Of a stretch of 64,000 bases of DNA, positions 42,285-58,064 are shown piece by piece. This DNA is from Natrinema sp. SYSU A 869 (GTDB lineage Archaea; Halobacteriota; Halobacteria; Halobacteriales; Natrialbaceae). The stretch spans positions 124,001-188,000 of the forward strand of contig NZ_CP082247.1 in NCBI RefSeq assembly GCF_019879105.1, given 5' to 3'. Position 1 is the first letter of the stretch, and every line of letters starts with the position of its first letter. The position numbers and the translations under genes were made by a program. The notes below the pieces were generated by a model, which had not been told where the DNA came from, did not search any database, and saw only the letters and a list, made by a program, of their open reading frames with translations.

Positions 42285-42433
42285 ATGATACAGAGCGATA
42301 GCGCATACCTCCGTCTTTAGGCGGAGGTCAAGCAATAGGCATAGTATGTTAATTCACGAGTCTCCGCTACTGCTTGATTTCCTACTCTTCATCGATGGTA
42401 TGAAGGCGGTATGAACTATAGTATGCAACACGG

Positions 42434-42818
42434 ATGAAGACTACACGGCACGCGACCTACAACCTCAACTACCACATCGTGTGGTTGCCGAAGTACCGCC
42501 AGTCGGTACTTCGGCAACGAGGTCGCTGACCGTGTGCGAAACATCCTCCACGAAATCGCCGACGAGAAGGGAGTAGAGATACTCGACATAACCGTCCAAC
42601 CCGACCACATCCATCTGTTCGTCAGTAGCCCGCCGAAACACGCTCCCTCGCTTCTCGCCAACTGGTTCAAGGGAATTTCCTCGCGGAAATACAACCACTG
42701 CTACGCCGATAACGAGAGTGAGAAGATTCGATGGGCGCGAGGCTACTACGCAGGGACGGCGGGGAACGTCTCCAGCGAAACGGTTCAGGACTACATCCAG
42801 CGTCAACAAAACTCATGA
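42434..42818 (+). pseudogene. tnpA: IS200-type TnpA (Y1 HUH transposase), frameshifted
   Basis: The ATG at 42434 starts KTTRHATYNLNYHIVWLPKYRQSVL, then the frame is lost; after one base it continues RNEVADRVRNILHEIADEKG, with the HUH motif DHIHLFVSSPP and the C-terminal RGYYAGTAGNVSSETVQDYI. The break lies in the right arm of a perfect 15-bp inverted repeat (42484-42518) that the homologous copy lacks; see findings. The transposase is thus probably inactive. Confidence 0.82.
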
Positions 42819-42879
42819 ATTCTGTTTGGCCCACGAGAAACGCGGCGTGTTTCTCGGGACGTCACGAGGAGGGTGACAC

Positions 42880-44118
42880 ATGACGGAACTTACCAAGACG
42901 TTGGAACTGAAACTAGTCGACCCGAACGCCCATAAGCAGAGGAAACTCTGTGAGACACGGGACGCCTACCAGCAAGCCCTCGCGGATGCGTTCGACGCTG
43001 GTTGTACCACCCAGACCGAAGCGAACGACGTGGTGGTTGACTACGACTTGAGCGGGTACGCGAAGAACGCACTCAAGAAGTACGTCCCGCAACTCACGAC
43101 GACCTACAACGCGGGCGAACTTCACGACAACCACCCCGTTCGCTTCACCAACGAAGGACTGCGACTCGACCACAAGCCCGAGAACGCTATCGAGTGGTAC
43201 GTCAAAATTCCCCATCACGAAGACTATCACCTCTGGATACCAGCACAACCGAATCCCGAACAGCGAGGTTGGCTGGAAGCGTTGAACGCGGGAGACGCCA
43301 AGATGGGCGAGAGTCGCCTATTCGAGCGGGACGGGATGTGGTATCTCCACGTCACCGCCACCCGAAACGTGGAGGAACGCTCCGAGGAATCTGCCGAAGA
43401 ACGGACGCCTATCGGAGTAGACATCGGAGAAGCGTCACTCGTCACGGTGTGTCACCGCGACGACCACGGTTCTCCGACCGCGCCCGAACTGTGGGCCGAC
43501 GAGGGCAAGACCGTCCGTCGGCTCCGTAAGACCTACTTCACTGCCACTCGCCGACTCCAGACGCGCGGGAGTGAGCGTATCGCGGAGTCCTTCAGGGACG
43601 ACGTGTGGAACCTGATAGACGATATATTCCACACCGTCACCCGCGGAGTTGTGGAGTACGCCGAATCCGTCGAGAATCCTGTTCTTGTTCTAGAAGACCT
43701 GACGTACATACGGGAGTCGATGGACTACGGCGACTTCATGAATCGGCGTCTCCACGGATGGGGATTCGCCAAACTCCACGCGCAGATACGCTACAAAGCT
43801 GTCGAGAAGGGTATCCCCGTCAAGACGGTGAACCCGCGCAACACATCGAAGGAGTGCCATTCGTGCGGTGAAGTGGGGTATCGTCCAAAGCAGGCGACGT
43901 TCAAATGCACGAACGACGGCTGTTGGATGGGCGAGTACCAAGCGGACGTGAACGGCGCGATAAACATCGCAGACCGCTACCTCAGCGGAGAGAGTCGTTT
44001 CAGAGAACACACGGACGACGATGACTCGGCTGAGGATGGGGCGCGTTTGACCGCGCCACAAGACAGCCAAGCCGATGCTGAAACCCAGCAGAAGACGCTT
44101 GGAACGTATGCGTCTTGA
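42880..44118 (+). CDS. tnpB: TnpB RNA-guided nuclease (copy 1, intact)
   Basis: The 412-residue protein has RuvC-I IGVDIGEASLVTV, RuvC-II VLVLEDLTYIRE with the catalytic Glu, a zinc finger CHSCGEVG and CTNDGC, and RuvC-III QADVNGAINIA. An acidic tail follows. TnpB homes to DNA matching the guide RNA encoded at the element's right end. The associated TnpA is frameshifted, so only TnpB is likely functional here. Its degenerate sister is at 56563. Confidence 0.87.
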   Translation: MTELTKTLELKLVDPNAHKQRKLCETRDAYQQALADAFDAGCTTQTEANDVVVDYDLSGYAKNALKKYVPQLTTTYNAGELHDNHPVRFTNEGLRLDHKPENAIEWYVKIPHHEDYHLWIPAQPNPEQRGWLEALNAGDAKMGESRLFERDGMWYLHVTATRNVEERSEESAEERTPIGVDIGEASLVTVCHRDDHGSPTAPELWADEGKTVRRLRKTYFTATRRLQTRGSERIAESFRDDVWNLIDDIFHTVTRGVVEYAESVENPVLVLEDLTYIRESMDYGDFMNRRLHGWGFAKLHAQIRYKAVEKGIPVKTVNPRNTSKECHSCGEVGYRPKQATFKCTNDGCWMGEYQADVNGAINIADRYLSGESRFREHTDDDDSAEDGARLTAPQDSQADAETQQKTLGTYAS

Positions 44119-44207
44119 AACCATAGGGTCGTTGCACTCGGCCTGAAATCTCGTGGCGAGATTCCGCGTCTTCAGGCGCGGAAGGAGGTCAACACATACT
44201 GCGTTAG

Positions 44208-56030: not shown

Positions 56031-56183
56031 TTCGATGATACATAGTGCGAGCGCATACCCGCGTCTTTAGGCGCGGGTCGAGCGGTAGGCATAGTGTGTC
56101 TATTCTGCGTTGCTACGAACGGCTGTATTTCTCGTACTTTGATATGATTTTAAGGTTCGTCCTGGCTATAGTGTGTAGTACGG

Positions 56184-56542
56184 ATGAAGACCACACGACA
56201 TACAACCTCAACTACCACATCGAGTGGTTGCCGAAGTACCGCAACTCGGTACTGGTGAACGAGGTTGCCGACCGTGTGTGTCGAATCCTCCACGAAATCG
56301 CAGACGAGAAAGGCTTGGAAATTATCGACCTCACCCTCCAAGCCGACCACGTTCACCTGTTCGTGAGTAGCCCACCGAAACACGCCCCGGCCCTCTTCGC
56401 CAACTGGTTCAAGGGTATTTCCTCGCGGAAGTACAACCACCGCCACGCGGACCACGACGGCGAGAAAATCAAGTGGACACGCGGCTACTACGCGGGCACA
56501 GCGGGCCATGTTTCCAGTGAAACAGTTCAAGACTACATCTAG
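56184..56542 (+). pseudogene. tnpA: IS200-type TnpA remnant (copy 2)
   Basis: The frame keeps TTYNLNYHIEWLPKYRNSVLV, ADHVHLFVSSPP (HUH) and RGYYAGTAGHVSSETVQDYI. Relative to copy 1, about 7 bp are deleted just after the ATG at 56184, which breaks the natural start, and CAG changed to TAG removes the last residues. It serves as the unconverted reference for the palindrome found in copy 1. Confidence 0.78.
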
Positions 56543-56562
56543 CGCCACGAGGAGAGAGATAC

Positions 56563-57848
56563 GTGACCGAACTCACCGGGACGCTGGAACTCAAGCTTGT
56601 GGAACCGAACACCCACAAGCACCACAAACTCTGTGAGACGAAACAGGCGTACCAAGACGCCCTCAAAGCGGCGTTCAACGCGAATTGCACCACCCAGACC
56701 GAAGCGAACGACGTAGTGGTTAACTACGACCTGAGCGGCTACGCGAAGAACGCACTCAAGAAGTACGTCCCACAACTCTGTGGCGGAAGCTACGACGCGA
56801 AAGAGCTTCACGACGACCACCCTGTCCGATTCACGAATGAAGGTCCGAAACTCGACCACAACCCACAGAACGCCATCGAGTGGTACGTCAAAATTCCACG
56901 CCACGACGGCTACAACCTGTAGCTCCCCGCGCAACCGAATCCCGAACAGCATGAGTGGCTCGAAGCATTGCACGCGGGGGACGCGACGATGGGTGAGTAT
57001 CGCCTGTTCGACCGAAACGGTGAGTGGTACTTGCACGTCGTCGCAACGCGAAACGTGGAGGAACGAACCAGTTCGGCGGACGAAACGCCGATTGGGGTAG
57101 ACATCGGGGAAGCCTCTTGGTAACGGTGTGTCACCGTGACGAGCGCGGCTCCCCGGCTACATCCAACCTCTGGAACGACGAAGGCAAGCGAGTTCGACAA
57201 CTCCGTGAAACATACTTCACGGCGACTCGCCGCCTTCAGAAACGCGGAAGCGAACGTATCGCGGAATCCTACGGCGATTCGCTCTGGCGACAGATTGACG
57301 ACATTTCCACACAGTCACGTTGGAGGTTATCGTCTACGCCGACCAATTCGAGAATCCTGTGTTGGTTCTGGAAGACCTGACGCACATCCGGGAGAACATG
57401 GACTACGGCGCGTTCATGAACCGTCGGCTTCACGGATGGGGCTTCGCAAAGATGCACGCCCAACTCCGCTACAAGGCGGCTGAGAAAGGGATTCGTGTGG
57501 AGACGGTGAATCCCGCGTACACCTCGAAGACGTGCCACTGTTGCGGAGAACAGGGCTACCGGCCCGAGCAAGCGACGTTCACGTGTTCGAATTCGGAGTG
57601 TTGGGTTTCGGAGTACCACGCGGACATCAACGCCGCCGCAAACTTGTTGCACAAGTTTGCTGCCCGTCAGACGTAGTCTGACGACCGCGCTCAACATTGC
57701 AGACCGCTACCTCAGCGGAGAGAGCTATTCAAGAGAACACACGGGTGGCGATGACTCGGCTGAGGAAGGGGGCCGTTTGACCGGTCCACAAGACAGCCAA
57801 GCCGATGCTGAATCCCAGCAATTGACGCGTGGAACGTATGCGTCTTGA
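56563..57848 (+). pseudogene. tnpB: TnpB remnant (copy 2)
   Basis: From a GTG at 56563 the protein follows copy 1 (TELTGTLELKLVEPNTH) but has a stop at YNL* (56922), a frameshift after VDIGEAS (about 57115) and another near 57320. A separate frame keeps VLVLEDLTHIRE, CHCCGEQ and SEYHADINAA. A 48-bp paired-hairpin insertion then splits it before ALNIADRYLSG and the acidic tail. The catalytic core is recognisable but not functional. Confidence 0.82.
57638..57683. repeat. Paired-hairpin insertion in TnpB copy 2
   Basis: Hairpin 1: perfect 10-bp stem GCAAACTTGT/ACAAGTTTGC with loop TGC (57638-57660). Hairpin 2: perfect 8-bp stem CGTCAGAC/GTCTGACG with loop GTA (57665-57683). Compared with copy 1 (ADVNGAINIADRY), about 48-50 bp have been added between the codons for NAA and LNIAD. 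Confidence 0.72.
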
Positions 57849-58064
57849 AACCGAAGGGGCGAATCACTCGGCCTGAAATCCCATGGTGGGATTCCTGCGA
57901 CTTTAGGCGTGGGAGGAGGTCAAAGAAGAAGCCGATCCCAACGGCGAACACTGCGAGATTCCAGGCGGGACGGACCACGGTCCGGCGACCGACGGGAGAC
58001 GCTTTACGGGAACGAGTCCGTCGATGCGGTTGTCGCCGCCGTCACTACGGGCTGTTCCGGGAGA

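Follow-up and report, generated by a model that had tools for sequence, protein, structure and literature searches.

The tnpA gene of an IS200/IS605 element in a haloarchaeal genome very probably lost its function through one quasi-palindrome template switch, as judged from sequence comparison, with the left arm of an inverted repeat inside the gene templating the right arm. The element (copy 1) is located in a 64-kb stretch of DNA, referred to here as the window, which is part of a 0.89-Mb contig (C1) in a 5.67-Mb genome. Its relevant features, in window coordinates, are the following.

42286–44192, + strand: IS200/IS605 element copy 1, delimited by alignment with two sister copies from the same genome (L002 and L003), the flanks of which are unrelated.
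42307–42328, + strand: left-end hairpin ACCTCCG-loop-CGGAGGT, seen in the sequence; relatives have the same hairpin.
42434–42818, + strand: tnpA pseudogene with a premature stop at 42527–42529, from the sequence and its reading frames.
42484–42498, + strand: left arm GTTGCCGAAGTACCG, unchanged with respect to the consensus of the relatives; presumed template.
42499–42503, + strand: loop CCAGT, from the sequence.
42504–42518, + strand: right arm CGGTACTTCGGCAAC, presumably converted, unlike that of all relatives.
42509–42514, + strand: minimal converted tract, from alignment with the clade consensus and the sisters.
42880–44118, + strand: tnpB, 412 aa, intact (open reading frame; PF07282).
44162–44183, + strand: right-end hairpin TTCCGCG-loop-CGCGGAA of copy 1, from alignment with relatives.

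The element has the hallmarks of the IS200/IS605 (Y1 HUH transposase) family, namely a TnpA of the Y1_Tnp family with the HUH motif and the catalytic Tyr, subterminal hairpins, no inverted terminal repeats and a TnpB with a Cas12f-like zinc domain. The sister TnpA matches PF01797 at 1.7e-39 and PDB entries 2ec2/2f4f at about 5e-38, and Y1_Tnp (PF01797) is also matched in the 94-aa remainder of copy 1 TnpA. The closest relatives, 83–91% identical in tnpA, are haloarchaeal elements of the ISH35/ISHla21/ISNpe10/ISNma12 group, with which copy 1 shares the combination of tnpA, tnpB and end hairpins. Unlike in those elements, however, tnpA of copy 1 is dead. Disrupted tnpA genes are common in some haloarchaea (PMC3119063).

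The inverted repeat at 42484–42518, described already in the initial annotation, is present as a perfect 15-bp stem with a 5-nt loop at codons 17–29 of copy 1 tnpA. No other perfect inverted repeat (loop ≤20 nt) of the whole 64 kb is as long; in 15 first-order Markov shuffles of the same composition perfect inverted repeats did not exceed 12 bp. The tnpA frame breaks at the arm, with a frameshift at about codon 26, and reads MKTTRHATYNLNYHIVWLPKYRQSVLRQRGR followed by a stop. The resulting TnpA of 31 codons ends ahead of the HUH and tyrosine motifs; DHIHLF and, towards the C terminus, the tyrosine of YI (both motifs read by eye) are lost from the first frame but still encoded in the downstream frame.

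What changed in the right arm depends on the sequence chosen as reference. The initial annotation compared copy 1 with a second element in the window:

56033–57923, + strand: copy 2, an element that has diverged and decayed and is neither the ancestor nor a near relative of copy 1, from alignment and tree.

Copy 2 indeed reads CGGTACTGGTGAAC (from 56227 on), but it is only about 76–78% identical to copy 1, belongs to another clade in the tree and has decayed, with bases lost near the tnpA start, stops and frameshifts. Its identity of ~77%, its decay and its separate clade rule it out as a reference or ancestor for copy 1. The appropriate references are the sisters L002 and L003, which are 97–98% identical to copy 1, encode an uninterrupted 127-aa TnpA and form with copy 1 a clade with 100/100 support in a maximum-likelihood tree constructed without the arm columns. 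About 100 further relatives from the same order were aligned (102 rows including copy 1).

The sisters read GTCGCCGAAGTACCG-CCAGT-CGGTATTCGTCAAC, and the surrounding clade mostly GTTGCCGAAGTACCG ... CGGTACTCGTCAAC. The exact left arm is found in 49 of the 102 aligned rows (copy 1 counted) and the exact right arm CGGTACT-CGTCAAC in 31, most of the close ones among them. The comparison with related tnpA DNA that had been proposed as a check thus gives CGGTACT-CGTCAAC or the sister form CGGTATTCGTCAAC as the ancestral right arm; the choice between these two forms is uncertain. Relative to either, copy 1 has gained a single base (at 42509–42511; T relative to the clade consensus, C relative to the sisters) and carries one T-to-G substitution at 42514, 4–5 bp apart. 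Both changes make the right arm an exact complement of the left arm, which stays ancestral. Before the event 13 of the 14 positions in the arms, which comprise the codons for LPKYR..SVLVN, were already complementary, and the repeat had one bulge in addition to the 5-nt loop. The predicted single-strand DNA fold of the ancestral sequence has an energy of −8.8 kcal/mol (z −4.4), that of copy 1 −18.3 kcal/mol.

The original proposal, that a copy-2-like arm GGTGAAC was swapped for TCGGCAAC, 8 bases replacing 7, reads copy 2 correctly, but copy 2 is the wrong ancestor, the sisters and close relatives having CGTCAAC; the sister copies refute this version, and we assign it a negligible probability. 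Relatives carry TCGTCAAC, that is, 7 of the 8 bases of the supposedly new arm, so that most of it pre-existed, and the converted tract needs to span just ~6 bp. Templated quasi-palindrome conversion itself withstands the change of reference and is the best explanation, with CGGTACT-CGTCAAC or CGGTATTCGTCAAC rather than GGTGAAC as the starting arm; the finding that might have spoken against it, TCGGCAAC in most intact relatives, was made in none of them. The weight of the evidence lies in two concerted changes and not in an 8-base patch, and two point changes leave only a small trace.

In order to find out how readily such a stem arises by chance, the changes specific to copy 1 were considered together: 16 substitutions and a few indels over 1.9 kb, with only two transversions among the 16, T42514G being one of them. 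When the same load of random mutations was applied to the ancestral element, a 15-bp stem appeared in 0 of 5600 simulations (maximum 13). A scan for sites convertible to a perfect 15-bp stem (loop 3–10) by at most one substitution and at most one indel returned a single site in the whole ancestral element, the one at 42484–42518. Because both changes fall within 6 bp and both add complementarity, and because the probability of two independent hits is ~7e-7 (a rough estimate from simulation and scan counts), templated conversion is well supported. Two ordinary mutations, a one-base insertion that disrupted the gene (slippage at CT/TC) and a later neutral T-to-G in the pseudogene, would each be commonplace, and copy 1 does have further unique substitutions and indels. 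Nevertheless, both would have had to complete the same palindrome at the one eligible site, an outcome never reached in the simulations, and T-to-G is rare in the copy 1 spectrum; we therefore regard this course of events as improbable. The region further agrees with quasi-palindrome mutation in that an imperfect inverted repeat with a short spacer was there beforehand and that identity between the arms was extended with one arm unaltered. As to several changes occurring in one event, chance is excluded at the simulated level, and since no intermediate was seen we infer a one-step origin, which is not itself observable.

A donor copy would provide another route to the same arm. Over its 3′ half copy 1 is near-identical to L002 but not to L003, which suggests that element copies recombine, so gene conversion from a copy already bearing the TTCGGCAAC arm was considered. 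That arm occurs in no aligned relative, and neither the aligned relatives nor the two scanned sequence collections (genome contigs and viral contigs) contain the perfect core CCGAAGTACCG-N5-CGGTACTTCGG; therefore, no donor was found. Neither collection holds a copy with the TTCGGCAAC arm, and the flanking sites of copy 1 are not donor-like, which makes conversion from another copy very unlikely. Even less credit can be given to a selected hairpin or programmed frameshift that regulates tnpA translation. IS200-type genes use structure for control, and a strong hairpin does lie close to the gene start; however, only copy 1 has the perfect hairpin, the sisters and relatives keep one uninterrupted frame, and the stem does not covary in the relatives. 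Covariation of the 7-bp core among them did not exceed that of shuffles (684 versus 682.7 expected), and hence the hotspot has not visibly been converted often in other lineages. One relative, L034 (AGTGCCG/CGGCACT), was considered as a second conversion at the arm site; both of its arms are altered and each change is also found alone elsewhere, and it was not counted.

Under the preferred reading, a template switch, the event would have taken place while the tnpA-sense strand was being synthesised. The nascent 3′ end would fold back past the loop and copy its own newly made left arm for about 6–15 nt, synthesis would then rejoin the normal template, and the heteroduplex would become fixed. 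The 7-bp perfect core beside the 5-nt loop is the likely hairpin promoting the switch. Strand and direction are read solely from which arm changed: under the nascent-strand model, synthesis of the tnpA-sense strand is suggested because the left arm is unaltered and in frame whereas the right arm is rewritten.

The mechanism is already known, and copy 1 is a genuine, well-supported case of it. Quasi-palindrome (QP) template-switch mutation has been measured in E. coli with lacZ QP reporters (PMC7202029), and QP mutations are known in yeast (PMC3820800), including from a yeast gene phylogeny (PMC8604942). Copy 1 shares with these an imperfect repeat, a short loop, an arm rewritten to match its partner and a multi-base frameshift; unlike the reporter events, it is natural, resides in an archaeal insertion sequence and was deduced from sister copies rather than selected. 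Monttinen and Loytynoja (PMC8794818) described how template switching creates or preserves perfect stems. As in their cases, a single templated event would have turned an imperfect stem into a perfect one; unlike in their RNA genes, the stem of copy 1 lies in a protein gene and inactivates it. Copy 1 thus offers a clean natural archaeal record of a class of mutation that has been known chiefly from reporters in E. coli and yeast. The ancestral state is established by sister copies within one genome, and the case illustrates why claims of this type should not be based on comparison with a diverged paralogue.

The left arm also contains a site at which relatives carry a small insert, and a comparable insert is present in tnpB of copy 2.

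42491–42495, + strand: empty insert site between the PK and YR codons, inside the left arm, with the insertion point at 42491/42492; from alignment, a double-hairpin insert of 51 bp is present here in frame in relatives.
57637–57688, + strand: double-hairpin insert of 52 nt at the D-I-N-A motif of tnpB in copy 2, from sequence and pattern comparison.
Loci with the PK^YR insert: L028, L055, L086, L087, L102, L103, L106, L107, L111–L116, L120 and L122; L151, L153, L154, L156–L159 and L179.
Loci with the dispersed two-hairpin unit: L131–L140 (own genome), L155, L160 and L161–L178.
Loci of the tnpB family: 57637–57688 of the window; L200–L206 and L211–L238.

On a slight balance of probability, the palindrome converted in copy 1 is the recurrent PK^YR entry point of an undescribed family of putative mobile double hairpins of ~51 bp, found in frame in IS200/IS605 genes of haloarchaea, and a second family is located at the tnpB RuvC-III motif (D-x-N-A^A). 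The spread of these units would not depend on that of the host gene, and their stems would stay paired while drifting in sequence, possibly through template switching of the kind proposed for copy 1. The 51-nt insert is present in frame at the PK^YR site in 14 of the 102 tnpA rows, and 12 of these 14 hosts have a full-length TnpA. It consists of two small hairpins, CGCAGAACC-GAY-GGTTCTGCG and GCGGAAC-NNN-GTTCCGC, and encodes SRRTDGSADIAEQGSAQ. A spliced intron was dropped as an explanation, the insert being 51 nt long, in frame and free of stops. On the tnpA tree, no fewer than 12 changes are needed to account for its presence and absence. The empty L088 and the filled L111 are 98.8% identical in their backbones, and the inserts are closer to each other than their hosts are (90.8 versus 84.8%). 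The same 51-nt insert occurs at the homologous codon of two other TnpA subfamilies (three in all) as well as at non-tnpA sites.

Of 146 genomes belonging to the order, 71 have matches to a covariance model of the tnpA insert; outside the order it matches only two among a phylum-wide draw of 247 genomes. The own genome of copy 1 contains ~10 dispersed matches, often as the core of larger multi-hairpin repeats, and the unit is sometimes nested within another hairpin (L136, L139). Across 65 matches all 16 pairs have changed on both sides, and 97.5% of the cells are paired as against 78.7% in shuffles, albeit the alignment was fitted to the structure and the figures are somewhat inflated; the linkers GGACMTC and GCTCAGT are conserved. 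G523, a 1.9-Mb genome from another family of the phylum and outside the order, has 22 matches to the model with slightly different linkers (L180, L187, L193, L197, L198).

The pattern of the second family (a variable hairpin, TGCCC, GTCAGACNNNGTCTGAC and GACCGC) differs from that of the tnpA insert. It was detected in 23 of 195 genomes, and the reversed control in none among the genomes listed. About 22 of 28 places lie in tnpB, exactly at the RuvC-III D-x-N-A^A motif; the inserts occur in both orientations, mostly antisense, and many are read through in frame, often when antisense.

An Rfam scan of eight loci, insert-bearing ones included, gave no family over the double hairpins, and no description of such inserts was found in the literature searched. 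The nearest kinds are the Rickettsia palindromic elements (RPE) and the SMR-A repeats of Haloquadratum. SMR-A have an ITR and are about 110 bp long, and PATE are derived from IS605 ends. Unlike SMR-A, the inserts are about 50 bp long, comprise two hairpins and have no ITR. What they have in common with RPE and SMR-A is that they are multi-copy, palindromic and in frame and target IS605 genes: RPE are small mobile palindromic repeats lying in frame in genes (reviewed in PMC10969869), and SMR-A attack IS605 elements (PMC3119063). If the interpretation of the inserts holds, conserved motif codons of both IS200/IS605 genes have repeatedly been invaded by tiny, often in-frame hairpin elements. This point, if true, is wider than the conversion in copy 1, and the inserts deserve a separate study.

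Some further observations concern copy 1 as a whole. Its TnpB is intact, and the genome contains two sister copies whose intact TnpA could mobilise it in trans. Compared with relatives, one arm of its right-end hairpin lacks a C and the other shows a G-to-A, and the 7-bp stem is still perfect; the two differences may be a second paired change, either templated or selected. Since G-to-A transitions are frequent here, the hairpin was taken as suggestive and not used as proof of templated change. Finally, between 43000 and 44190 copy 1 is a mosaic: in the 3′ half of tnpB it is nearly identical to L002, with L003 differing at numerous sites there, and is nearer to L003 than to L002 around 43040–43410, a pattern in the three copies (L001, L002 and L003) that suggests recombination between element copies.
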